This document shows positions 4,654-35,290 of a stretch of 36,739 nt of DNA, piece by piece. Each line of letters begins with the position of its first letter. The first letter of the stretch is position 1. Made by a program: the position numbers and the translations under genes. Under the pieces are notes generated by a model. It did no database searches, was not told the DNA's origin, and saw nothing but the letters and a program-made list of their open reading frames with translations. The stretch is taken from IMG/VR virus record IMGVR_UViG_3300032296_001095, positions 1 through 36,739 of that record, one strand, 5' to 3'. The stretch comes from a virus.

Positions 4654-5057
4654 TTGCTGGCCCTCACAACGTCATCGCCTTTTGTTACCGTAACGTGATC
4701 GCCTTCTACGTCGACGCGCATCGGCATCTCCTTGCGATCAAGTTTGTCTAGCTTGGCGATCAGTTCCTTGATCACGGCGAACTCTGGTTTCTCCTCTTTC
4801 TCGTTTGCCCCTGCGATACCGTTTAGCATCGAGATCAGCGCGGTCAATGACGCGCCGAGCAAGCCCATGACGGCGGCGATCTTGTCGCTGTCGAGCGCAA
4901 GGCTGGACAGAACGCCGATCACAACAATGATGGTGATATAGGCGAGTCCATGCTTGCCAATTGCCTTCCCTGCAACATCCTTTGCTGAAGAATTGGCTTC
5001 CAGCCTTTGCAGTTCAGCGCGAGCTTGTTCGCGCAATAGTTCAATATCTTCGCTCAT
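4650..5057 (-). CDS. Two-TM holin-like membrane protein
   Basis: This 135-aa protein has a charged N-terminal helix (1-30) and two hydrophobic segments at about 37-55 and 60-83. They are separated by a short acidic turn (LDSDK). The C-terminal 50 residues are charged and soluble. It lies in the lysis cassette and overlaps the next gene by ATGA. The topology suits a class II-like holin or an antiholin partner of the three-TM protein downstream. It could also be a superinfection or membrane-tethering protein. No family could be named with confidence. Confidence 0.65.
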   Translation of the reverse strand: MSEDIELLREQARAELQRLEANSSAKDVAGKAIGKHGLAYITIIVVIGVLSSLALDSDKIAAVMGLLGASLTALISMLNGIAGANEKEEKPEFAVIKELIAKLDKLDRKEMPMRVDVEGDHVTVTKGDDVVRASK

Positions 5058-5064
5058 GCTTTGC

Positions 5065-5211
5065 CTATTTCTTGTTCACCAAATCGAACAACGCCTTGAT
5101 CTTTTCCTCAAGCACCGCGACTCGTAGGTCGAGCTTTGACAGCACGATGATGAGCGTGATGAGTGCAAGTATTACCGGCCACGCTCGAGTAAATATTTCA
5201 AAAATGTCCAT
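5065..5211 (-). CDS. Small single-TM protein of lysis cassette (48 aa)
   Basis: This 48-aa frame starts at an ATG that overlaps the upstream stop as TGATG (5209-5213). It has one hydrophobic segment at about residues 8-25 followed by an amphipathic, charged helix (LRVAVLEEKIKALFDLVNKK). The single TM plus short cytoplasmic or periplasmic helix matches small holin or holin-regulator proteins. Its position between two other lysis-cassette membrane genes supports this. It is below the usual gene-calling length, but coupling and hydrophobicity make it convincing. Confidence 0.7.
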   Translation of the reverse strand: MDIFEIFTRAWPVILALITLIIVLSKLDLRVAVLEEKIKALFDLVNKK

Positions 5212-11019: not shown

Positions 11020-11325
11020 TTAGTTTCCTTTTGCCTTGTTGCGTTTACTTATCGCCGCGGCTTTCGCTTTGGCGTCTTCTTTTGAGCTGGCGCCCCACGC
11101 TTTGAGGGCGAGGGCGAGTCGGGTCGGTCGTCCTTTGTCATCGACCATCGGCCCAGGAGCATTCCCCATGCGCGCCAGAAAGCTTGCTCTGCGCGGATTA
11201 TCGCCAGACTTGACCGGAGCTTTAAGTTTTCCACCTGTTTCGCGAGCATAGCTGGCCCTCCCTTTCTCGTTGAGGCCGCCCTTTGGGTTCTGTCCTTCTT
11301 TACGTTGCCACGCCGCTGTTTTCAT
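11020..11325 (-). CDS. Small basic conserved protein (DUF6321-like)
   Basis: This 101-aa Lys/Arg/Gly-rich protein has the pattern WQRKEGQNPKGGLNEKGRAS, then SGDNPRRASFLARMGNAPGP, then RLALALKAWGASS. I recognise it as a widespread family in phages and aquatic virus genomes (DUF6321, from memory). No activity is known to me, and the charge and Gly-rich loops suggest nucleic-acid or capsid-DNA interaction. The start ATG overlaps the upstream stop as ATGA. Confidence 0.75.
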   Translation of the reverse strand: MKTAAWQRKEGQNPKGGLNEKGRASYARETGGKLKAPVKSGDNPRRASFLARMGNAPGPMVDDKGRPTRLALALKAWGASSKEDAKAKAAAISKRNKAKGN

Positions 11326-11582
11326 TGCTCGGCCACTTCCCTCATTTCGCTGGGACGACCGCCGCCGCCACCGCCACCGCCACCCCCGCCGCCATACACC
11401 GGGGTCACGGGCCTTGGGCCGCCGAGGCCGGCGATCGCTATGCCCACCGCAGCGCGTGGGCCAGGTCTTGCGATACGCCCAACGGCGTTACCGAGGCTGC
11501 TTCGACCGCCCGTTCTGCGAAACGGATCATAGCCGCCACCTTCCTCGAGGTCTCCGTTGTCTCCAAGTACCGCGGCCTTCAT
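11322..11582 (-). CDS. Small protein with 12-glycine run
   Basis: This 86-aa product has an acidic N-terminus (LGDNGDLEEGGGYDPF), an Arg/Gly/Pro/Ala middle and an uninterrupted run of twelve glycines (encoded by 11358-11393) before a short polar C-terminus. Both ends are ATGA-coupled to neighbours, which supports translation despite the low complexity. Length polymorphism of the glycine run would be expected from the trinucleotide repeat. No family is recognised. Confidence 0.55.
   Translation of the reverse strand: MKAAVLGDNGDLEEGGGYDPFRRTGGRSSLGNAVGRIARPGPRAAVGIAIAGLGGPRPVTPVYGGGGGGGGGGGGRPSEMREVAEQ
11358..11393. repeat. GGN trinucleotide run encoding polyglycine
   Basis: These 36 bases are an almost pure alternation of GCC and ACC triplets on the plus strand (GGC, GGT and GGG codons on the minus strand), encoding twelve consecutive glycines. 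The mixed codons suggest selection on the peptide or an old expansion rather than a fresh slippage product. Confidence 0.9.
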
Positions 11583-13491: not shown

Positions 13492-14039
13492 GCGTCCTCC
13501 GAGCTGAACCAGTCTGTTTGTCGCCTCAAGAACTTCGGCCACTCGAGCTCTTCCGTGAACGATCGATCCTCGACTAACACATGGTTGGTCGGTTGCGCTG
13601 TGATGCGGCCGTTATCCAGCGCACAGAAATAAAACTCTTTCGATTGCTCGGGTGCCGCGCTGAATGCGTCTGCGACCGGCACCACCGTGAATAGGTACTC
13701 ACCGCGCAGCTCACGCTTGTCTCGCAGCTTCACCCGCACATTGTTCGACATCAGGTAGGGATATTCGATGGTCGAGAACTGCCAGCCATACGCATCCCAA
13801 GTCTGTGCGTCGGCAGGGCTCCAAGGTTTATCGGTCGGCTTCGATGCAACCTTGTGCAACGGTACGTTACGGTAGACCGCGCCACCCTCGAGTAGGCAAT
13901 GGCATCCCCACGATCGACCTGGGTAACTCGTTACGCCAAACCATATCGCTCTCAACCAGTCATGCTCACCGATCGCGTTCGGTTCGATCCAAATGTAGTG
14001 ATGCCGAGGCAGCGCACCAGCGTGCGTGTAAAGTGTCAC
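13488..14039 (-). CDS. Conserved hypothetical phage protein (183 aa)
   Basis: This 183-aa soluble protein is rich in aromatic residues and begins at a GTG in a GTGA overlap. Notable segments are HHYIWIEPNAIGEHDWLRAI, a WGCHCLLEGGAVYRNVPLHK stretch and a DAYGWQFSTIEYPYL stretch. The pattern looks like a phage-specific globular domain of mixed alpha/beta type, but I cannot name it. It sits in the replication-proximal leftward cluster and is likely expressed early or middle. Confidence 0.68.
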   Translation of the reverse strand: MTLYTHAGALPRHHYIWIEPNAIGEHDWLRAIWFGVTSYPGRSWGCHCLLEGGAVYRNVPLHKVASKPTDKPWSPADAQTWDAYGWQFSTIEYPYLMSNNVRVKLRDKRELRGEYLFTVVPVADAFSAAPEQSKEFYFCALDNGRITAQPTNHVLVEDRSFTEELEWPKFLRRQTDWFSSEDA

Positions 14040-14353
14040 TTTGCTCTGTCCTTCAATCGTTGCAACCCGCGTTCACCCCATAGCGATCGCACCAACCCGA
14101 CAAGGTGCGGATCACCGAGCACCAACTTCGGGTCGGCTGATCGGATCGCCTCGCCCACCTCGCCCTTGAAGAATTCCAAATTGCCGGGGTCGAGTCTGGC
14201 ATAGCGCGCATCGAGCAGTCGCAGTTTGCCGAGCGGAGTCGCTGCCGCCTCACGCCAATGCTCTGCTGCCGATCGTGTTGCCCAGGCTGTGCGGTCAGGC
14301 GCTGGGGCTGGTTCCGGCTTCGATGCCGGCCATCGAGACATCTCATCGCCCAT
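14036..14353 (-). CDS. Hypothetical protein downstream of replication gene (105 aa)
   Basis: This 105-aa protein has a Pro/Ala-rich N-terminus (residues 8-25) and a helical C-terminal domain. It overlaps the DUF1376 gene by 11 bases and has a G-rich ribosome site. Its position directly after the replication-initiation-like gene is where lambda-type phages carry a helicase loader. It shows no P-loop, so a loader role is only positional speculation. Confidence 0.6.
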   Translation of the reverse strand: MGDEMSRWPASKPEPAPAPDRTAWATRSAAEHWREAAATPLGKLRLLDARYARLDPGNLEFFKGEVGEAIRSADPKLVLGDPHLVGLVRSLWGERGLQRLKDRAK

Positions 14354-14834
14354 CTCTTACCCCCTTTCCCAACATCTCCGATACTGACGTCGGCCCCCTT
14401 CTGCCACCCCTAGAGGTATTGGAAAAGGGTTGCAAAAACTCAGTTTGGTTATTGGTTATTGGATATTGGTTATTGGAGAGCATTGCCTTCGCATTGCCAT
14501 CGCTATGCGTTCGCATTGCGCTCGCATCCCATCGACGCTTGGCAGAGTCGGCTGCCTTCTTGCTTTTTTCCAGCATCTTGGCGATCTCTTCCTCGACTCG
14601 CTTGTGTTGCCAGCCGTCATCAGTCAGCAAGAAGAACTCGCGCAGCACGGAATCGACCGCGGCCTTTTCCTGCCTGGTCGCAGCTCTGACGATGCGGTAA
14701 GTCTCGTTCGCCGGGATCGGTTTTTCGGTTGCGTAGTATCGATCGAGCAGCAGGGTGTAAACGCCGTGCTCGAGGATCGACAAATGATTAGCGTCTCGGG
14801 AGTAATCCCCGATATGCCTTGGATAAAAATTCAT
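14343..14834 (-). CDS. DUF1376-type replication initiation protein
   Basis: This 163-aa protein starts NFYPRHIGDYSRDANHLSIL. Its first 80 residues match the DUF1376 domain of phage and prophage replication proteins, likely a winged-helix DNA-binding domain. A charged helix follows (VEEEIAKMLEKSKKAADSAK). The tail is low-complexity (SNNQYPITNNQ) and is encoded by tandem DNA repeats that look like origin iterons. ATG at 14834 has GAGG upstream and overlaps a preceding frame's stop as TAATG, so the longer start at 14879 is rejected. It probably binds its own coding sequence to start replication with host enzymes, as lambda O does; this is inferred. Confidence 0.8.
   Translation of the reverse strand: MNFYPRHIGDYSRDANHLSILEHGVYTLLLDRYYATEKPIPANETYRIVRAATRQEKAAVDSVLREFFLLTDDGWQHKRVEEEIAKMLEKSKKAADSAKRRWDASAMRTHSDGNAKAMLSNNQYPITNNQTEFLQPFSNTSRGGRRGPTSVSEMLGKGVRDGR
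14447..14531. other. Candidate replication origin: iteron-like repeats and AT-rich tract
   Basis: On the plus strand, four tandem heptamers (GGTTATT, GGTTATT, GGATATT, GGTTATT at 14447-14474) are followed by five imperfect 11-bp units: AGAGCATTGCC, TTCGCATTGCC, ATCGCTATGCG, TTCGCATTGCG, CTCGCATCCCA (14477-14531). Neither unit length is a multiple of three, although the DNA is coding, so the repetition is at DNA level. Iterons of about one helical turn beside an AT-rich tract inside an initiator gene are the layout of the lambda-type origin. Origin function is inferred. Confidence 0.55.
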
Positions 14835-15065: not shown

Positions 15066-15314
15066 TCATAAGCCTTCTGTGTCCGGTTGAGGGCGCAGTC
15101 CGTCCTTGATCTTACGGATTAGGCGCTGGGTGCTGCGGTTCTGTTCGCCAGACTCCAGCTCCTGCACGACCTCGCCAGCCAGCTCACGCAGGGCGAACCG
15201 CTCCGGCACCTTCCCAGACTTGACCCACCTGGAAACGTAAGCGCGGGTCACACCAAAGTGGCGGGCCACCTCGCTCTGGTTGCCGTATTTCTTGATCAAT
15301 TCATCGATGTCCAT
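15066..15314 (-). CDS. Cro-sized helix-turn-helix regulator
   Basis: This 82-aa protein has a helix-turn-helix at about residues 12-33 (QSEVARHFGVTRAYVSRWVK) near the N-terminus, as in Cro/C1-family proteins, and a charged helical tail. ATG at 15314 has AGGAGG just upstream. The in-frame region further upstream crosses the control region and is not coding. It is the first leftward gene and faces the rightward operon across about 130 bases holding TTGACA-containing repeats. It is the only evident transcription regulator, so it probably controls the early switch by binding there. No full-length CI-like repressor was found. Confidence 0.82.
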   Translation of the reverse strand: MDIDELIKKYGNQSEVARHFGVTRAYVSRWVKSGKVPERFALRELAGEVVQELESGEQNRSTQRLIRKIKDGLRPQPDTEGL

Positions 15315-22540: not shown

Positions 22541-25500
22541 TTACTCTTTCGGGGAGCCATAAAGCAGCTCATACATGGCCTGTTGCGGGGACTCTGGGTT
22601 GGCCTCGTCGTTCAAAACGTCCATTGTGTATTCGCCACTAATCCTAATCTGCCGTGTCGGAAGGCCGAAAATGTAACCGCTGGCATCCAGCAAATCCCAC
22701 GCGACATCGTTGAACTCTTTGTTCCCGGTAACAACGTCTGGAACCGCAACGAACGTCGTCCGCGCAACTTGCTCTATTGCTCCAGCCACCGGAGACAGTC
22801 TCCAGTTTGGCTGGTACTTCATCTCACCCTCACCACTTAATTTTATCATAGAGGCTTCGATCATCCCGGCACCCTCCTTCAGGATCGGGATTGTCGCGAG
22901 CGGATAGAGCAACATCTTTCTAATCGCCCACCAAACTTCATCCTCATCTTCCTCCGGCCCTCGGCCCGCCAGGATTTCGCCCATTACCGCTGGCATGATG
23001 ACAAGCGCCAGCATACGGGCGACCGCCCTAGGCATATCCTTCACCTTTCGGGTCGTACCGGCCACATCCCGCAGACGCGCATAAAGTACTGAGAATGGGG
23101 TGTAGTACATCGTGAGCAATTTCATCAACTCGTTATCGCGCTGCACCGCGGCGAGGTCTTTAGTACCAGCCGCGCCCTGCGACAGACGCACCGCCCGGTC
23201 GCCGGCACGGATTGCGTCTTCCTCATTCAGCCCTTCGGCAAGAGCCTGACGGTATGCCCCAAGCCAGGTCGGGATTGTGACCTGCCGATCAGCCATCGCG
23301 GTAAGGAAGAACGCAGACTTTCGGATCGTCGCAAGGGGGCCGTTTTCGCCACGCAACTTCCGCAGGTTGTCTCGCACATCGCGATCAATCGTGTCGGTAC
23401 GGAACCTCATCTCACCGGATCGCTCGTAAACGAACTGCTCAAGCGTTTCACGGTGAGTTGAGAACGGCCCGAATCTGTTGTAATCAATCAATGCCTGGGT
23501 AAAGAACCGTGGCTTCACCAAATCGAGCGCAGGGCCGATGCCGGCGAACTGGGCCATCATGGTCGTAATCTTCCAGCCCATCGTCACAATCGCCATGTTT
23601 GTGCGGAACTGCATGATCGCTCGAGAAATCACATTGCCAGAATGGAGCGTATCGGCACGGTCAGAAACCAGCACCTGCATCCATTTGTTGAACTCCCGAT
23701 AACGCGCCTCGCCCAACTTGTCGATCATTACTTCCTTGATCTCCTCATCCTTGAGAAGCTTGTTGAGCGAGAAGATAGCCTCGCGGTGCGAAATGTCTTT
23801 AATGACCTTCGAGAGGTGGCTGGTCAGTACCTGCTCGTAGTCAAGGCGCACAGCCGCCTTCAGATTTTCGACACGCTGCTTGGTGTAGCCGCGATCTGTC
23901 CGTGCGCGACCATATGCATTTGCCATGAACTGCCCGACAGATTCGACCGCCTCAACCTGTTTATCGCCAACGGCCGAAAGCTTCGGGTCATACGCTAGCG
24001 GGAAGTAGCCGCCGGCATAGTCGCCAAACGCCGTCTGCACCACACGCGCCTCAACCTTCGGAGGAGCCACGCCAGAGGTACGCTCCTCGAGCGCCTTGAT
24101 TTCAGGCCAAAGGGAATTAACCGTATCCCAGATGCCCTGCACATAATCCCAATCGGCCTTCGTCAGGTTTTGCAACGCAGCATTGATTGTCGCGTCGCTC
24201 CAACCGTAACCGTCTAATAGGCGTTGATAGTTGCTGTTATTGCCGACATTGAGCGCCATCGAGATCAACGTGTATCGCGTGACCGGCCCATCAACACCAA
24301 GCAGCGTCACATCGAACCGATCCTCAAGCGTGTTCTTCCAATCAGCCGGCAACGCTTCGGTAAGGTCTTGAATTTTCTTCGTGACCATCGCGTGGAGCTC
24401 GTACTCTTTCGTCTGCGCGTCGTTAGCCAGGTCGAATATGTATCGAGCCCACGGGCCTTCGATCTTGCCGCCATCGAGCCATTCGATCATCTGCTCGACC
24501 TTGATCAGCGCAGCATCAAAATTACGCCACGCGCGGGCTCCTCGTGCCTTCAGCGGCTCACCGACTGTATTCGGAATACCGAGCTCGCCGGTAGACCTCA
24601 ATCGATCAGAAGAATTCGCCGCCGCAATGAGCTCATCCTTAACTGACTGGAACTCAATTGCAGCAGCCTTCCGCAGAAGCTTGTCCTTCATCCGAGCAAG
24701 GTGCTCAATGTTACGCACGGTGTCGTAGACCGCCCGCAATTCATCGACTGAGGCATTCTTGTAATTGACTAACTTAGCGTCGTCGAGCAGCTGATCCGGT
24801 ACGTTGACGATCAGGCCGAGCTGGGCTTGCTGCTCGGCAAAATCCAATAGCGACTGACGGCGAGTCAGGATTGCGCGTGGAACCTTGCGGAACTCGTACT
24901 TCTCCAGAATGGAATCAATCTGGTCGAGATAGCCGCCGCCGACCTTGGCGAGGCGTTCGCGGGTAGATTTCTTATCAAACTTGTTCGCGTAGTTGTAGAT
25001 CGTGTCGAGCTCTTTCGATGCCTGACGCGCCTCCAAATACATATAGTGATTCAGTAGTTCGCGCTGCTTTTCAATAGCGGCCCGCTGGTAATCCTTGCGA
25101 CGGATTGCGTCAAACGCAGCCTTCGATGCGCGGCGCTCTGCGAGCAAGTATTGATTCGGCCGAATGTCTCGGGCTTGCATCTGACCAATACGGCCAGCCG
25201 CCACTCGACGGAATGAGCCAGGATCGGCAATCGCCGCCGAGATCATCTCCATCCCCATTTGCGCTTCCATGCGCTCGCCGCGACGCTCTGCCGCACGGAT
25301 CATGCCAACCTGTCGCTGCAGCCTACGGATTGCCAGCAGTTCCGTCTCAATAACTTTGGCCCGCTGACTGTTATGCACAGCCGCCATCGCCTCATCAGCG
25401 ATCGAACCATCTATCCGCATATCACCGTACTGCGCCGACATCCGGCTTGCAGTCTCGGCCTCGATAAATTCCTTGCGAGGTCGGAGGTTGATCAGCGCCG

Positions 25501-28500
25501 TCATCAGTTCGGTGCCGCTCTCAAAGCCGAGCATCTCTGCCGCAACCTCAAGACTGGTGCCTTCATCCTTTGAGAAAATTTTGCGGAGCCCACGCGGCAT
25601 CCGCTTCAAGTACTCAGCGCCAAAACGGTTTTCCACCAGCTTGCGCGAAAGCTTGATCGGAACGCCATTCGGCATTTTGCCTTCGATTAGGATTGCTGCA
25701 GCACGGTACGGAAGCGAGGCATCGACCTCTGCGGTCACCTCGGCCATTACTTCCTTGCGGCGCTCCTTCCACCACTTCTCACGCTCGCGTTGGTACTCGC
25801 GCATGAGCTGGTTCTGCACCGTCTCTTTCGCTTTCCCTACCGCAGCCTCTGCCGCTCGCTTGTACGCTTCAAACTCGGCCTCTGTCATGCCGGCATCTTC
25901 TGCCGTGGCAAAGACAGACTGCACATCGAGCTCGGCGTTAGCAGCCTCAATCTCAGCGTCCGTTGCATAGATGCGGTCAAACACGCCACGAACATCGTCA
26001 TTCATTCTGACGTTGAGATTGGTCAGGGTGTTATAGACCAGCGTCATCCATGCGCGAACACGCTGGAAAATGGAGCGCAGCGCCGTGCTCGGCGCCTTGC
26101 CTTCCATCAGGTAGGCTTCGTTCGCCCGAGCAAACTGCTCATGCTGTTTGACGCCGATCTCTGCGCGAGACTTGACGCCAAACCACTTCATCAAGGTTTC
26201 AGCGTCTGCCTTAATCTGCGGGCTAGCGTCCGGCCTGTCGGCCAAATCCAGCAACACTTCAAGATAGAAGTGGCCGGTTTCGTGGATAAAGGTAGAAAGG
26301 TCAGCCTTCTCTAAAAGACCAATCTTTACGCGACGGTCTGCGCCGAACTGGATGTAGCCGCGCTTTTCATCTGGGGCGACTGCCTGGAAGAAAGTTCCCG
26401 GCGCTCCTTCAGCACCGACGCCAGCCGCCGGTACGCCTCCTGCTCCTGCGAAACGACGGGCTCCATCGCTGAATCCATAGCTTTGCGTTCCGGTGCCGAG
26501 GTGGTTGAAGAGTTGTTGCTCAAAGAACCAGATGACGGACTGGGCTTGGTACGGCTTAATCCCGACTTGTTCTGCTGCCGCATTGAATATCTCCTTAATC
26601 ACCCGACGCTGTGGCTCTGTCGGAGCGTCAACAATAGTACCACCCTCATCGAGCATTTGTCCAAAGTACCGATTAAAGGTACGGGTGGCCCACATATCGA
26701 TCGTCAGCTCGTAGATGCCGTTAATGTTTGCGACAAACGGGCCAACCTTCGGGCCGAACGCAAACAGGCCGAGCTTCATATCGTCGGCCTTGCCATCTAC
26801 GCCGGGGCCAAGATTGCCCCACTTCTTTCGAGCTTCGTTTAGCTCTTTAACGGTATGCTCGGAGAAAAGCCATTCGACGGTCTTTTCTTCTCCGATGTCT
26901 TTGACCATTGCATTGAGCATATCGAGCTGCTTTTTCTTGTTTGCAGATCGAAGACCGCCAGCCCACAGTTTCCCGTTTTTCGGGTTTTTCCCTGGGATGG
27001 TTCCAGTCTTTTCGTAGTGCTCAAATGCCTCGGCCGTAATTTGCCAGTTCAAATTGGCAAGTGTGCCGGGGGACAAGATCGCGGCCATGACCGAAAACAG
27101 TTGCCGCTTTGTTTCGCTTTCAAGTGAAGGAATAATCCGCTGCGTAATTGAGAATGCAGACTGGATGTCTTCCTCGTACCAATCCAAACCAGATTTCGCC
27201 TGACCCATCTGGTATCGGAGTTCTGCCACCAACTGAGCAATCGCCCGCTGCTGTTCTGCCGGATCGCTCCAGTCACGCTTGCCGGTGATGCGGTCGAAAA
27301 ACGCCCCGACCTGCCGGATGTCCATCCGTTGATTGCCGGTGAGTTGCGGCCCATTGCGAATATCTATCGCAGTCGTTTCCGTAGCGGCGTCTGGAAGCTG
27401 AACATTTGAATCCGGCTCTTTCGCCTTGCGTTGCTCAAACTGCATCGCCGGCGTTTCCATGCCTTCCGAGGCTTTTCTAATCAGCGCCTTGATCGTTGCG
27501 TTGTCGGTTGTCTGAATGTCGATGCCCTGCTGCCCGAGGAACTCCTCGAGCCCCATCAGCGCATCAGCCAACTCCTGCAGACTGCCGCGCTCTTTCCCAG
27601 GCTGATACACCGGCTGCCCACGGAACTCGAGATCGAGCGCCTCCAAAAAGGTGACCTCGGTATCGCCAACGTCGTAGCCGGCCTCAAGCGCAATCTCTCG
27701 GGCCTGGTCATAAGTCATGCCATTGTCAGATACCAGCGCCCTCTCGCCCGGCTTGCGGTTGTCGCGATCCCAGAGCTTTGCGTCACGCGCCGAGAGCTCG
27801 CCCCCCAAATCCTGCAACCCACCGCGCTCCCGCAGAAACTGGGTCAGCGACTTGCCGAACATCTCTTTAGCGGTTGGAATTTCCCCAGCCCGCAGACGGT
27901 CGATCAGCGGGTCAAGGACGGTATCTATCCCCGCCTTGGCTTGCAGAACATCCGGCAACGGGATAACGACCTGCAGTCCGTACTGCTCATGCAACTGCAT
28001 GGGATCAAGCCCAGCGCGCTGCGCCAGACTGTTTATAGCCCGCGAGTATAGGGTGGCGTAGTTGTCAGCAGTCTGCCTGTCAAACCGCCCCATAAGCTGT
28101 CCTAGGACGTCCTGCTTGATTTGCTCAATGGTCGGAGCCTCGGCGGGCGGGCCTTCCGTTTCCATGAGCTGCTGAATCTCGGCCTCGATCTCCTTGCGAC
28201 GGCTCTCAAGCGCCTCAACCTCACGCATCGTCAGGTCGCCCTGGAAAAGGCGCACATCCCTCGTCAGCGCCACATGGTGCTCAGTCGGAGCCAGCCGGGT
28301 CGCGTAGTTCTCAATCGGGATGATGACGTCGGTGCCAGTCGCTACAGCCTCGGCATAGTTGGTCGCGCCAACCTCTGCCGCTACCTGCGCGGCATCCGCA
28401 TTCTGGCTTTGCCAGTATTGAGTAAACTGATCGGCCGGAATATAGACATTCTCGACCGGCCCCTGCTCACGGGCGCGGGCCACAAAGTCTTGGAACACTT

Positions 28501-29800
28501 CCGGTAACCGCTCGCGCAGTTTTGAGGATCGCGCCGTATCACCGAGCGATTCCATGAACTCAGCGGTCTGATTGGCCTTGCGTACCTCACGGATATTGCT
28601 AACCGTTGAGATCGCCGCACCCGGTATACCGACACCGGCCCCGCCGGCAAAGCCCGCTACACCAGACTCAATGATGCGCTCAACGTCAGTTCCCGCCTCA
28701 TCCGGTGCAAACTCCTGTCCGCTCACGCCCTGCGCGAGTTCGCGACCAATGATGACGCCGAGCTCTTGCAACGACTCGGTGACGCCCTCAATCGTCGCAG
28801 ACTGCAACCACTTCTTCCCGGCCTGTGCGATTGCATTGCGGAATGTCGGTCGCGCTAACAGAGTCTTGACCGCCTCGCGCGATCCAGCACCAAGAATCTT
28901 GTCAAGGCCGGGAATAAGCTTGGCAAGCGCAAGATCACCAACCGTCTCAAGGCCGGCATTAAGCAAGCCCGCTGCCGCGGCAGCACCTCGAGCAACGGCA
29001 GGGTCAAGAGGCTGACCGTTAACGTCGCGGATATTCTCGTACTCAGCAAACGCAAAACCGGCCTCTTCCTTGTAGTTGTAGACCGTCGTTGCCGTGATAT
29101 AGCCAGCGCGCGCACCAAAGAAGAAAGCACCGGGAACGGTCACCGCCTCTTCCGGCAACACCGGGGCCAACACCGTACCGGCAACCGCCGCAGCAGTCGC
29201 AGCTCCAGCACCACCAACCACCGCGCCCTTTCCACCCTCTCGGATGGAACTCACAAGCTGGCGGCCCGTGTACCCGGTCTGCCCAAGGAACCACGCGAAC
29301 GGATTGTCTTGCCGCTCTTCCATATTGGCGAGCGCGCCTAGCTCATTCAAAAGTTTTTGCCGTTCGGCCTGTTCTGACGGGCTAATGACGCCGGTAATAG
29401 CTTTCCAGTTGTACGGGCTAACCTGATCTTGAATTGAGCCCTGCTTCCAACCCTGCGCGCCAGCAGTAAAGGTTTTCTCAATACGCTCAAGCACGCTGAC
29501 ATCGTCTCGAGCAACGTCTGCCTGTGCCGCAAGGAAGTTAGAAGTAACCGGGCTATTTTTGATTAGGTTGTCGTAATCAATACTGCCAATAGTGGTCTGC
29601 CGCTCAATCTCTTTGCGGTCAGCCCTAACAGTTTCGATTGGGACATTTGCGCGCTGGGCAAGTTTGCGGAATTCGGCCTCGACATCTGGCTCAGTGGACG
29701 CGGCACCATACATAGAATTGCGGAGCTGTAACTTTTGCTCCTGCCGCAAAATATCGAGGTAAGGATTCTCATCCTCGACGAGCTGCCGATAGTCGGTCAC
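22541..29800 (-). CDS. Giant polyvalent ejection protein with HExxH motif
   Basis: This 2,419-aa protein sits where T7 carries gp16, the largest ejected core protein, and starts at GTG in a GTGA overlap. Residues 180-400 are Gly/Ala-rich with hydrophobic stretches suited to membrane insertion. A zincin-like motif HETGH lies at 1173-1177, and E1228 in a FARANEAYLMEG context is a candidate third metal ligand. Coiled-coil regions fill 1330-1900. Residues 2050-2419 resemble large polyvalent-protein C-terminal domains (SQGAAGTKDLAAVQRDNELM, hydrophobic LPD38-like end). T7 gp16 has an N-terminal transglycosylase, and none is visible here. It is likely ejected with DNA. Protease activity is inferred. 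Confidence 0.85.
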   Translation of the reverse strand: MTDYRQLVEDENPYLDILRQEQKLQLRNSMYGAASTEPDVEAEFRKLAQRANVPIETVRADRKEIERQTTIGSIDYDNLIKNSPVTSNFLAAQADVARDDVSVLERIEKTFTAGAQGWKQGSIQDQVSPYNWKAITGVISPSEQAERQKLLNELGALANMEERQDNPFAWFLGQTGYTGRQLVSSIREGGKGAVVGGAGAATAAAVAGTVLAPVLPEEAVTVPGAFFFGARAGYITATTVYNYKEEAGFAFAEYENIRDVNGQPLDPAVARGAAAAAGLLNAGLETVGDLALAKLIPGLDKILGAGSREAVKTLLARPTFRNAIAQAGKKWLQSATIEGVTESLQELGVIIGRELAQGVSGQEFAPDEAGTDVERIIESGVAGFAGGAGVGIPGAAISTVSNIREVRKANQTAEFMESLGDTARSSKLRERLPEVFQDFVARAREQGPVENVYIPADQFTQYWQSQNADAAQVAAEVGATNYAEAVATGTDVIIPIENYATRLAPTEHHVALTRDVRLFQGDLTMREVEALESRRKEIEAEIQQLMETEGPPAEAPTIEQIKQDVLGQLMGRFDRQTADNYATLYSRAINSLAQRAGLDPMQLHEQYGLQVVIPLPDVLQAKAGIDTVLDPLIDRLRAGEIPTAKEMFGKSLTQFLRERGGLQDLGGELSARDAKLWDRDNRKPGERALVSDNGMTYDQAREIALEAGYDVGDTEVTFLEALDLEFRGQPVYQPGKERGSLQELADALMGLEEFLGQQGIDIQTTDNATIKALIRKASEGMETPAMQFEQRKAKEPDSNVQLPDAATETTAIDIRNGPQLTGNQRMDIRQVGAFFDRITGKRDWSDPAEQQRAIAQLVAELRYQMGQAKSGLDWYEEDIQSAFSITQRIIPSLESETKRQLFSVMAAILSPGTLANLNWQITAEAFEHYEKTGTIPGKNPKNGKLWAGGLRSANKKKQLDMLNAMVKDIGEEKTVEWLFSEHTVKELNEARKKWGNLGPGVDGKADDMKLGLFAFGPKVGPFVANINGIYELTIDMWATRTFNRYFGQMLDEGGTIVDAPTEPQRRVIKEIFNAAAEQVGIKPYQAQSVIWFFEQQLFNHLGTGTQSYGFSDGARRFAGAGGVPAAGVGAEGAPGTFFQAVAPDEKRGYIQFGADRRVKIGLLEKADLSTFIHETGHFYLEVLLDLADRPDASPQIKADAETLMKWFGVKSRAEIGVKQHEQFARANEAYLMEGKAPSTALRSIFQRVRAWMTLVYNTLTNLNVRMNDDVRGVFDRIYATDAEIEAANAELDVQSVFATAEDAGMTEAEFEAYKRAAEAAVGKAKETVQNQLMREYQREREKWWKERRKEVMAEVTAEVDASLPYRAAAILIEGKMPNGVPIKLSRKLVENRFGAEYLKRMPRGLRKIFSKDEGTSLEVAAEMLGFESGTELMTALINLRPRKEFIEAETASRMSAQYGDMRIDGSIADEAMAAVHNSQRAKVIETELLAIRRLQRQVGMIRAAERRGERMEAQMGMEMISAAIADPGSFRRVAAGRIGQMQARDIRPNQYLLAERRASKAAFDAIRRKDYQRAAIEKQRELLNHYMYLEARQASKELDTIYNYANKFDKKSTRERLAKVGGGYLDQIDSILEKYEFRKVPRAILTRRQSLLDFAEQQAQLGLIVNVPDQLLDDAKLVNYKNASVDELRAVYDTVRNIEHLARMKDKLLRKAAAIEFQSVKDELIAAANSSDRLRSTGELGIPNTVGEPLKARGARAWRNFDAALIKVEQMIEWLDGGKIEGPWARYIFDLANDAQTKEYELHAMVTKKIQDLTEALPADWKNTLEDRFDVTLLGVDGPVTRYTLISMALNVGNNSNYQRLLDGYGWSDATINAALQNLTKADWDYVQGIWDTVNSLWPEIKALEERTSGVAPPKVEARVVQTAFGDYAGGYFPLAYDPKLSAVGDKQVEAVESVGQFMANAYGRARTDRGYTKQRVENLKAAVRLDYEQVLTSHLSKVIKDISHREAIFSLNKLLKDEEIKEVMIDKLGEARYREFNKWMQVLVSDRADTLHSGNVISRAIMQFRTNMAIVTMGWKITTMMAQFAGIGPALDLVKPRFFTQALIDYNRFGPFSTHRETLEQFVYERSGEMRFRTDTIDRDVRDNLRKLRGENGPLATIRKSAFFLTAMADRQVTIPTWLGAYRQALAEGLNEEDAIRAGDRAVRLSQGAAGTKDLAAVQRDNELMKLLTMYYTPFSVLYARLRDVAGTTRKVKDMPRAVARMLALVIMPAVMGEILAGRGPEEDEDEVWWAIRKMLLYPLATIPILKEGAGMIEASMIKLSGEGEMKYQPNWRLSPVAGAIEQVARTTFVAVPDVVTGNKEFNDVAWDLLDASGYIFGLPTRQIRISGEYTMDVLNDEANPESPQQAMYELLYGSPKE

Positions 29801-32426: not shown

Positions 32427-35290
32427 TAGCCCGCGGTCTCAAGCTCTGGATACAGCGCCACCACAGTCATTGGGAGCGGCTGATCCGCAACCACCCAAAT
32501 CCTGCCATCCGTCTCATAGCCGCTCGGGAACGCAAAAACGTCGGTATCGCCAGTAAGTAGCGGCGGCACCTCGTTCATGTAATCACTTAGGGTACGGTAC
32601 TGGATGTAGTCTAAATTGTTTGCGGTCGGCCCAACCTTTCCTCCAAGCGTTGCATAAAGCCTAAGTCCAAGCTTGTGTACTCGCTTGATCTTGGCCTGCG
32701 CTGTGCCGATCGATGCACCCGCCTCAAGACGCTGGGTCGCCAGAGTCGAGGTGTATGGATAGCCGATGATTGCACGGGAGGCCGCGAACGGCAGAGTTAC
32801 GGTGCCGTCCGTGACCGTGAGATCAAGAACTTCCTGGCCGTCGACAAGTCCGACCACCGTCTCGCCCTCGAGGTGGTAGAGACCGCGCAGCGAGGTCGCA
32901 GTCATTCGCCAGGTATCGAATGCAATGTCATCGTTAGGGAACGCGGAGATGATTGTCGTCAACACCGACTCTTGATCCACAAACGATGTAATGCGAGCCC
33001 TTGCCGTGCGCCAGAGTTCCTGAGTCGTGTCATAGTAGCGGTGGGCAATCTCTCGGTTGACGTCGCTCGCAACGAATATTGGGTCATTTACCACGATCAA
33101 GAAATCGTCTTCAGTCTCAATGAACTCGTCTGCCTCGCTCGCCATTTCAATCGACGACGTCACAGTAAAGGCCACATTGGTCGACCCTGCCGTTTCGTAT
33201 CCCTGGCTTAAAAACAGATCAGCCGCGACAAGCGGGTTAAACTCGAGCGATGCGTCAAGATAGACCGCACCCTGAACGTCGTCGCCCTCTTCAATCGACT
33301 GGGCGAAGTATTCAATAAATCGCTGGGTCTTGTTGACATCAATCTCAAGAGCAAGCTGATCGCTACCCTCGGTCAATAGGCCGCCGCCAGACTCAAGTGC
33401 GAGCTCGTAAGGAACGTCGCCCTCAATAGTGCGCGAAACCACGATCCAGATGTCGTCAACGTCGCCAGCGGGGCCGGGGATAATCTGAACGGCCTCGACC
33501 TTGGCGTCCGTGCCAGCAATCGGATGCTGGTGCCAAGCATAGATATTCTGCTCGCGGTCGTAGGTCAGGCCGATCAAACGGCCGTCACCAAGTACGCACC
33601 AGATGATGTCGTCCGGTTCCTTCTGGTACTCCATGTCGATGATTCCCGAGCGCGTGACTTCGGGATAAAGGACGTTCATGTCTCGAGGCACCCATGCGTC
33701 AGCCTGGATGTCGAACCGCAATTCCATGATGCGACGGCCACCGACACGGGCGAAGAGCACGGCATCTTCAACCAGGACAGGCTCGAGCTCCATCGACCCC
33801 TCGGCAGACTGCAGGTCAAACTTGACGTTCTCGGGGCCGAGCGGTGCGGTCGTGACGTTCTCGCGGATCGCAATCTCAGCGCCAGCGGTGCCGACGATGA
33901 GCGCGTTACCCGGTCGCATCCAGCGCACCTTGTCCACGTTACCGACCGCAAGGGTCAAATTCAGGGCATTGTCAGCAAGAATCTCGCCCAACGTGTCCGG
34001 TGCTTGTGAGCCATAGTCCCCTGCGACCGACGCATAGACATTCTGGCCGCCTCCCCACCACAAACGATCACGCCAGAACGCGACCTTGTAGGGGAACGAG
34101 CCGCCCATGCCAAAGCCCCAAGCGCCGACTCGGTAGTTACAGGTGGCGCCTGAGAGGAGCTCTGCCGGCGCATATTCGCCGGGGCCAATGACGTCTGCGG
34201 TCGCAAGCTGGGTCGAGGTAACTGCGGTGATCTTGAGCACGACGTAGCCGGGATGCAGAAACTGCCAGAGTACGCCCGTGTTGCCGTCGTATTCCTGTCC
34301 CTCTTCGTGGATCGGTCGGATGGCGCCCGTGGTGGCCGTGTTTGCGGCTTCGTAATACTTGCCGCTCGACTTACGCACATCGGTTGCCGTAATAGACTTG
34401 GCCGGCTCCCATTGCGTCGTCGTAATGTTGATGGGCTGCAGACGGATCAGCATACCGACAGAGTCGTTGTCAAATAGCGGCGCGCTGGTGCTGACCGATA
34501 CAGAGCCCGTTTGGGCAGACAATGTGAAGTCCATCGTCGTCGCGGCTTGCGCCTGGAACGGGCCATCTGTCGGCGCATAGGTCGCGAACGACCAGCTAGT
34601 GTTCCCTGCTCGAGTCAGCGTGCGCGGCGCGTAACCCTCGCATCCGATGTAGAGAATGTCGCCAGACTGGGTAATCGATAGCGCGGATGTCCCTTCCGGC
34701 GTAAACAAGTCTGTGACGTCGTAAGGCGAGGCGATCGTGTAAACACGGGCCGCATCACCATTGCCGCCATAAGTGCCGTAGTTGATCGTGTCGATGACGC
34801 CGCCGTCGATGTCGTAGAGCTCGAAGGTCTTTGCTCCGACGTTGACGTTGGTCACCTTGACGTATCGGCCGTTGACTTCCGGCATCCCGGCGACTGCGGT
34901 GATATACATCCAGTCGCCATTCGACGGGTCGGCCCCAACGTAGGTCAGAACGCCAGGGTTCGCATTCGTGATATTCGAGATGTCGAGCGGGTCTTCTAAG
35001 ACGACGCCACGATCGGTGTAGAAGCGGCAATACTGGTCACCGAACTCGATGACGTATGCCTGATCAAAAGCAAACTCAAACTTCTGCAACCATACCCGTT
35101 TGTCGGGATAGCGCGCTTGAAGAACGTACTTGGTGCCGGGGCAACGCTTGGCCGGCCCCTGCGCGGTCGGTATGAACCGCCGCATACGATGGGCACTCGA
35201 TGCGTACTTCTCGAAGTCTGTGCGCCCGCTCATCAGCGAGCCAACTTCGCCACCGTTGAAATTGACGACGGCCGGATTTGCGTTTGGCAT
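32426..35290 (-). CDS. Tail tubular protein B
   Basis: This 954-aa protein has the length and beta-rich composition of the podovirus nozzle protein T7 gp12 (794 aa). It starts FNGGEVGSLMSGRTDFEKYA, typical for these proteins, and continues with repeated beta-propeller-like segments (YVGADPSNGDWMYITAV). The late part (after 700) includes AQRLEAGASIGTAQ-like and beta-strand sequence. It forms the hexameric nozzle below tail tube A and binds fibres or spikes. It overlaps its neighbours by TAATG at both ends. Confidence 0.9.
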   Translation of the reverse strand: MPNANPAVVNFNGGEVGSLMSGRTDFEKYASSAHRMRRFIPTAQGPAKRCPGTKYVLQARYPDKRVWLQKFEFAFDQAYVIEFGDQYCRFYTDRGVVLEDPLDISNITNANPGVLTYVGADPSNGDWMYITAVAGMPEVNGRYVKVTNVNVGAKTFELYDIDGGVIDTINYGTYGGNGDAARVYTIASPYDVTDLFTPEGTSALSITQSGDILYIGCEGYAPRTLTRAGNTSWSFATYAPTDGPFQAQAATTMDFTLSAQTGSVSVSTSAPLFDNDSVGMLIRLQPINITTTQWEPAKSITATDVRKSSGKYYEAANTATTGAIRPIHEEGQEYDGNTGVLWQFLHPGYVVLKITAVTSTQLATADVIGPGEYAPAELLSGATCNYRVGAWGFGMGGSFPYKVAFWRDRLWWGGGQNVYASVAGDYGSQAPDTLGEILADNALNLTLAVGNVDKVRWMRPGNALIVGTAGAEIAIRENVTTAPLGPENVKFDLQSAEGSMELEPVLVEDAVLFARVGGRRIMELRFDIQADAWVPRDMNVLYPEVTRSGIIDMEYQKEPDDIIWCVLGDGRLIGLTYDREQNIYAWHQHPIAGTDAKVEAVQIIPGPAGDVDDIWIVVSRTIEGDVPYELALESGGGLLTEGSDQLALEIDVNKTQRFIEYFAQSIEEGDDVQGAVYLDASLEFNPLVAADLFLSQGYETAGSTNVAFTVTSSIEMASEADEFIETEDDFLIVVNDPIFVASDVNREIAHRYYDTTQELWRTARARITSFVDQESVLTTIISAFPNDDIAFDTWRMTATSLRGLYHLEGETVVGLVDGQEVLDLTVTDGTVTLPFAASRAIIGYPYTSTLATQRLEAGASIGTAQAKIKRVHKLGLRLYATLGGKVGPTANNLDYIQYRTLSDYMNEVPPLLTGDTDVFAFPSGYETDGRIWVVADQPLPMTVVALYPELETAG

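Follow-up and report, generated by a model that had tools for sequence, protein, structure and literature searches.

A probable phage replication origin formed by two short-period repeat arrays inside a DUF1376 gene

The DNA analysed here, hereafter the window, is a linear virus record of 36,739 bases from IMG/VR. Its minus strand carries a gene for a protein that matches the Pfam family DUF1376 over residues 2-85, with 105.3 bits against a curated cut-off of 30.1, and whose PHROG matches carry the name "primosomal protein". The function of the DUF1376 domain is listed as unknown, and few papers in the literature searched name it. It was the sole Pfam family found at E 0.001, and the protein has no match to Phage_rep_O, which we take to be the Pfam name of the lambda O protein family. 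A genome scan using the full window protein as query returned no relative. Along the gene, the DUF1376 domain is followed by a basic peptide, an 11-bp repeat array, a 7-bp repeat array and about 30 further residues, the two arrays occupying codons 103-130. The features are as follows.

14343..14834, minus strand: DUF1376 (PF07120) replication-initiator-like gene, 163 aa, host of both arrays (Pfam E 2e-30; PHROG)
14580..14831, minus strand: DUF1376 domain (Pfam and AlphaFold2 model; fold matches weak)
14529..14567, minus strand: basic peptide KSKKAADSAKRRW ("type A"), codons 90-102, ending where the 11-bp array starts (from the sequence; candidate reader of the 11-bp sites)
14480..14527, minus strand: 11-bp array, 4.4 copies, gene-strand consensus GCGAACGCAAT, that is, the dyad TGCGNNCGCA plus one base (Tandem Repeats Finder, period 11)
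14506..14515, no strand assigned: perfect dyad TGCGNNCGCA (window sequence)
14517..14526, no strand assigned: second perfect dyad TGCGNNCGCA, one 11-bp turn from the first (window sequence)
14445..14476, minus strand: 7-bp array, 4.6 copies, CCAATAA on the gene strand, family logo [CA]ACCA[GA][AT] (Tandem Repeats Finder, period 7)
14036..14353, minus strand: next gene, 105 aa, without family match (Pfam, PHROG)

On the plus strand the heptamers read GGTTATT (14447-14453), GGTTATT (14454-14460), GGATATT (14461-14467) and GGTTATT (14468-14474), and the 11-bp units run from 14477 as AGAGCATTGCC / TTCGCATTGCC / ATCGCTATGCG / TTCGCATTGCG / CTCGCATCCCA; the imperfect units are the third of the heptamer array and the first, third and fifth of the 11-bp array. 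An earlier note on this DNA had described four tandem GGTTATT-type heptamers at 14447-14474 and five imperfect 11-bp units, placed them inside a DUF1376 coding region and pointed out that neither period is a multiple of three. Direct reading and Tandem Repeats Finder agree with these positions and copy counts, and the minus-strand open reading frame (ORF) at 14343-14834 bears out the coding context. The units themselves are better read on the gene strand, the longer one as the dyad TGCGNNCGCA plus one base and the shorter one as CCA-based (CCAATAA) instead of GGTTATT. Elsewhere in the window, a single further TGCGNNCGCA dyad at 34196-34205, inside a tail gene, is probably due to chance, and an ACCGCC repeat at 11358-11394 (Tandem Repeats Finder score 60) codes for a glycine run in the minus-strand ORF 11322-11582.

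In an AlphaFold2 model of the window protein, residues 1-100 are confident and winged-helix-like, and a long helix (residues 78-119) contains the basic peptide. Segments 122-125 and 127-147 fall below pLDDT 50, and the stretch encoded by the heptamers is disordered. The model suggests that the N-terminal domain is likely a winged helix. Kinship to ORC, DnaD or RepA is unproven: Foldseek gave no match to the model at E 0.001, the best VIA-align Z of 6.8 lies inside the range regarded as common arrangement, and a PDB sequence search returned one chain, at E 0.36.

Repeats in coding DNA can reflect repeats in the protein, and we compared the best run of self-matches at each lag with that in synonymous-codon shuffles that preserve the protein. 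For the window gene, one of 5000 shuffles reached the observed score at lag 7 and none of 5000 at lag 11. The DUF1376 ORF was the only one among 40 window ORFs to show periods 7, 11 and 14 together, and no other had both 7 and 11. In lambda gene O, used as positive control, only lags 20 and 23 among lags 4-30 were reached by at most 6 of 300 shuffles (both by 0/300), and these are spacings of its annotated iterons. We then took 185 DUF1376 genes, window gene included, grouped into 131 clusters; one gene whose locus holds no stop (L060) was left out, and one with runs of N (L076) was kept and did not count as positive. All 60 of 60 shuffles were beaten at period 7 in 89 clusters, at period 11 in 41 and at period 14, which is twice 7, in 64, counts that are no independent events since the clusters are related. 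The remaining periods from 4 to 16 reached only 0-9 of the 131 clusters. In the same test the DUF1376 domain of these clusters gave 0-6 and neighbouring genes 0-3 of about 110; at period 7, downstream genes gave 0/109, upstream genes 1/113 and C-terminal parts 1/108.

Agreement with the consensus was also compared between sites that can and cannot be changed silently, and was 0.939 versus 0.878 for the 11-mer, 0.888 versus 0.871 for ACCA and 0.968 versus 0.901 for GTTNAAC. Because the shuffles are beaten and the match at silent sites is as high or higher, the arrays are kept as DNA. The arrays of the window are signals at the DNA level, more than chance: direct repeats that lie inside an initiator-like gene, after its N-terminal domain, and that the protein does not explain, with lambda as the positive control.

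The earlier note had looked to relatives for repeats at the same gene position, and these are present both in the closest relatives and in the order of arrays across clusters. In the closest relatives (L001-L019), whose proteins are 47-58% identical, the DNA of both arrays is nearly unchanged. In each of the 31 genes where both arrays are significant, the 7-bp array comes 3' of the 11-bp array, mostly after a gap of 0-6 nt, so that order and polarity are fixed. The heptamer start phase is spread evenly over the three codon frames (31/32/26). Across relatives the 11-bp logo is TGCGAACGCA plus A or T, a dyad with variable centre, and the heptamer keeps its CCA core and a strict 7-bp phase. The heptamer array of the window is visibly AT-rich, and that of many relatives (CACCAGA) is about half GC. 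Over the family, heptamer arrays have a mean GC of 0.50, 7.6 points below the gene mean and lower than the gene in 65 of 89, with a make-up of 43% A, 40% C, 9% G and 8% T. An AACCAG/AACCAA hexamer array takes the place of the heptamer in the DUF1376 genes of L028, L080, L081, L084, L090, L091, L095, L098 and L106.

We also searched IMG/VR in reverse, without a protein query, for five ACCA heptamers in register, in a pool that includes the loci of the 11-bp search. Among the matches listed, 120 of 130 heptamer loci lay inside a DUF1376 ORF, all on the coding strand, and three of the ten elsewhere resemble DUF1376 genes that are broken or cut. L238 (14 overlapping matches), L276 and L293 have heptamer runs outside DUF1376 genes, which may be ordinary repeats of heptanucleotides that arose in another way. 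The 11-bp unit was found in two copies at at least 120 loci (71 in DUF1376 ORFs and 49 elsewhere among the matches listed), and three GTTSAAC dyads at 11-bp spacing likewise at at least 120 (82 DUF1376 and 38 other among the matches listed).

A draw made without any DNA criterion comprised 398 genomes of one phylum, 29 of them with DUF1376. Eight of 32 loci had no domain match to the profile used and were left out, 24 were tested, and two (L545, L546) were already known. In the 22 genes that remain, of which three (L559, L562, L577) resemble each other and one (L557) has its tail masked with N, period 7 was found in 5, period 11 in 6 and either in 10; 12 of the 22 had neither array. With an array in only 10 of 22 genes, arrays are therefore common, not universal. 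An 11-bp dyad array also lies in apparently intergenic DNA beside structural genes in L411 (~5030-5080), where it adjoins A/T-rich short repeats, and in L405 (~880-915). These intergenic arrays are possibly a second, non-coding copy of the origin, as in SPP1.

Sorted by the peptide that follows the domain, the 131 clusters fall into types A (38), B (38), C (23), D (12), E (9) and other (11), classes that were defined after looking. At least two cognate 11-bp sites are present in 34/38 genes of type A, 34/38 of type B, 18/23 of type C and 9/9 of type E. Off-diagonal combinations of peptide and site mostly number 0-3; B sites in type D (7/12) are the most numerous, followed by B sites in type C (5/23) and E sites in type D (5/12); the 12 type D clusters have no clear site of their own. 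Because the peptide adjoins its site, common descent alone could link the two inside one family. Outside DUF1376, among the matches listed, 43 of 47 A-array loci have a type A peptide before the array and none has a type C peptide there, and 27 of 35 C-array loci have a type C peptide before the array and none a type A peptide, by a type C pattern that had been widened after the reverse matches; 2 further A-array and 3 further C-array loci have too little upstream sequence. By the narrower original patterns, applied to the same ORFs among the matches listed, the counts are 43/49 for A, with 0 type C, and 11/36 for C, with a type A match anywhere in the ORF in 1 case.

The second array behaves differently. 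Heptamers are found alongside all peptide types (A 19, B 21, C 62, none 49; 151 DUF1376 of 161 loci among the matches listed, including those fetched by the C pattern). When non-DUF1376 loci of the 11-bp search were scanned, 7 of 9 proved to be Lin1244_N (PF14297), a family distinct from DUF1376 whose genes are named replication initiation or O-like in PHROGs, and for which no naming paper was found in the literature searched. Here the second array is an AAAGK pentamer, with period 5 in 12 of 22 clusters and period 7 in 0 of 22 (ORFs under 120 aa dropped). In L425-L460, AAAGG/AAAGT pentamer arrays come after the 11-bp array, where DUF1376 genes have the heptamers. From the counts of peptide and site, the spread of the heptamers and the Lin1244_N pentamers, it follows that the 11-bp sites track the peptide. 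The second array tracks the N-terminal family instead, or else the host phylum. The earlier note had cast the DUF1376 protein as reader of the repeats beside an AT-rich tract. The basic peptide before the 11-bp array is a better candidate reader of it than the DUF1376 domain, since this peptide and its sites also appear in proteins that lack DUF1376. The heptamer array, with its CCA core, its strict 7-bp phase and a GC content of about half in many relatives, is more than an AT-rich tract.

Modules of these proteins are visibly swapped, the C-terminal part of Rac YdaU recurring joined to other N-terminal parts. In L518 and its relatives a different N-terminal domain sits on this C-terminal part, with a GTCACGA array of its own at 10-11 bp spacing. 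The candidate peptide/site pairs are SA..RW with TGCGNNCGCA, GKAS..R with GTTSAAC, GGRP with ACCCA/TGGGT and RQRR.RER with GTCACG, and the second short-period arrays, by N-terminal family, are the CCA heptamer and the AAAGK pentamer. Phage initiators may carry a portable origin cassette, in which a short basic peptide is followed directly, and in frame, by its cognate 11-bp sites, such pairs moving between unrelated N-terminal domains and the second array following the N-terminal family; we regard this proposal as evenly poised between right and wrong. Since the pairs would move between unrelated N-terminal domains, specificity and target would be inherited as one piece. If so, sequence alone could suffice to recognise origins and to assign them to their initiators.

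The neighbourhood of these genes is that of replication genes. The gene after DUF1376 was scanned in 118 of the 128 relatives found and matched, in overlapping PHROG counts, P-like loader (37), DnaB-like helicase (15), primase/helicase (15) and DnaC-like loader (9), and in Pfam DnaB_C (15), IstB (9) and lambda P (6). The window's own next gene (14036..14353) has no match to a loader family in Pfam or PHROG. In two relatives the gene after DUF1376 (L007:3522-4055; L010:3495-3962) matches an O-like initiator in the C-terminal half of the latter only, and from these matches the initiator of the window's clade appears to be split right after the arrays.

As the earlier note had it, no polymerase or helicase of the phage is in sight: Pfam families of polymerase, primase and helicase are absent from the 52 window ORFs scanned, a set without the 2419-aa ORF at 22541-29800, and ERF, YqaJ and YbcO are present among the 52. 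A small minus-strand regulator with weak YdaS/Cro-like matches (15066-15314) lies upstream of the plus-strand ERF/YqaJ recombination genes, a region that resembles an immunity switch. The GC-skew minimum predicted near 14490 did not materialize; cumulative skew falls almost steadily to about 33.5 kb and is confounded by gene direction, hence uninformative. Plasmid pSWBY1 carries repM besides a DUF1376 gene and is unfit as a test of a sole replicon. In two phage-like circular records YdaU is listed, and no Rep is annotated, within 50,000 of 52,756 and 48,704 of 60,703 bases, evidence that is weak because the PLSDB tables are incomplete.

Taken together, these results suggest that 14445-14527 is quite probably a phage theta-replication origin inside the gene of its own initiator, lambda-like in principle and with a different initiator family. 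The lambda-type arrangement proposed earlier stands in so far as DNA-level repeats directly follow the N-terminal domain of an initiator-like gene, as in lambda O; we infer protein binding, opening, loading and origin activity by analogy with lambda and with SPP1 oriL in gene 38. In a first step, the DUF1376 protein would bind the 11-bp dyads, which lie one turn of the helix apart, chiefly by way of the basic peptide that follows the winged-helix-like domain, and would stack along one face of the helix. The complex would then open or mark the adjoining A/C-rich heptamer array, the heptamers perhaps being recognised by the DUF1376 domain or by a host factor. Finally, a loader or helicase would be placed at the array, brought by the C-terminal part of the protein or by the product of the next gene.

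It is unlikely, in our estimate, that the arrays are instead another DNA or RNA control element, such as an autoregulation operator, a Rho-use site, or a packaging or partition site. All DUF1376 heptamer arrays among the matches listed are on the coding strand, as expected of an RNA element, and RNA or regulatory roles therefore keep some weight. A Rho-use site is C-rich, G-poor unstructured RNA, which the base make-up of the heptamer arrays resembles, and the region folds as RNA slightly better than expected by chance (z -1.9, 11/200 shuffles as good). Such an element would explain neither why the 11-bp dyads are tied to the adjoining basic peptide across families nor the replication-gene setting; moreover, the second arrays in Lin1244_N are AAAGK pentamers and not C-rich, and the region has no Rfam match.

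A very improbable reading is that the repeats merely encode a flexible Asn/Gln/Pro-rich linker born by replication slippage. The linker is indeed disordered in the model, and tandem arrays can grow in this way, long heptamer runs being found in unrelated ORFs (L238, L293). However, a peptide repeat needs no 7- or 11-bp period, and the fixed 11-then-7 order, the dyad symmetry and the family-specific reverse matches also speak against it; the synonymous shuffles and the codon-position test led us to reject it. We give still less credence to a true origin at which host proteins read both 11-bp sites and heptamers and the DUF1376 protein is only a loader, since, although heptamers with DUF1376 whatever the peptide and pentamers with Lin1244_N could reflect host phylum and not protein, the 11-bp sites follow the peptide and not the family, and the same site occurs in DUF1376 and Lin1244_N genes.

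If the in-gene origin reading is true, a large group of phage genes would gain a function, with the corresponding origins placed to within 100 bp. The lambda O principle, an origin inside the initiator gene, would extend to other protein families, and the arrangement would show how in-gene origins could be swapped during phage mosaicism. It would also offer small in-gene origins for plasmid building and pairs of peptide and site that are testable one by one. No prior report of these arrays was found in the literature searched, which did not reach most subscription papers.

The closest parallel is lambda, for which PMC7466680 describes an origin in the middle of gene O, with iterons bound by O and an AT-rich tract needed for unwinding. 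As in lambda and lambdoid O genes, direct repeats lie in the initiator gene directly after the N-terminal domain (codons 117-145 for the lambda iterons) and a second tract adjoins them; lambda has its loader gene P downstream. Unlike in lambda, the protein family is DUF1376, the units are 11 bp long (those of lambda are 18 bp, spaced at 20-24 bp), a strict array of CCA heptamers forms the second tract, and only about 30 residues of the window protein follow the arrays. SPP1 oriL, by description and not by sequence, is likewise a set of repeats inside the gene of an origin-binding protein; PMC6316719 places it in gene 38, with direct repeats, an AT-rich unwinding tract, the loader gp39 and the helicase gp40. 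Rac YdaU shares DUF1376 with the window protein and adds a C-terminal DnaT domain, with YdaV adjoining; its linker has a type C peptide and TGTTCAAACA...TGTTTGAACA dyads and, unlike the window gene, is without a heptamer array. The Rac prophage has an active origin, oriJ (PMC3945230), which we place in Rac and not specifically in ydaU. The phage initiators of the Lin1244_N family (PF14297) have the same type A peptide and the same TGCGNNCGCA array in the same place as the window gene, whereas their N-terminal family is another and their second array is the AAAGK pentamer.
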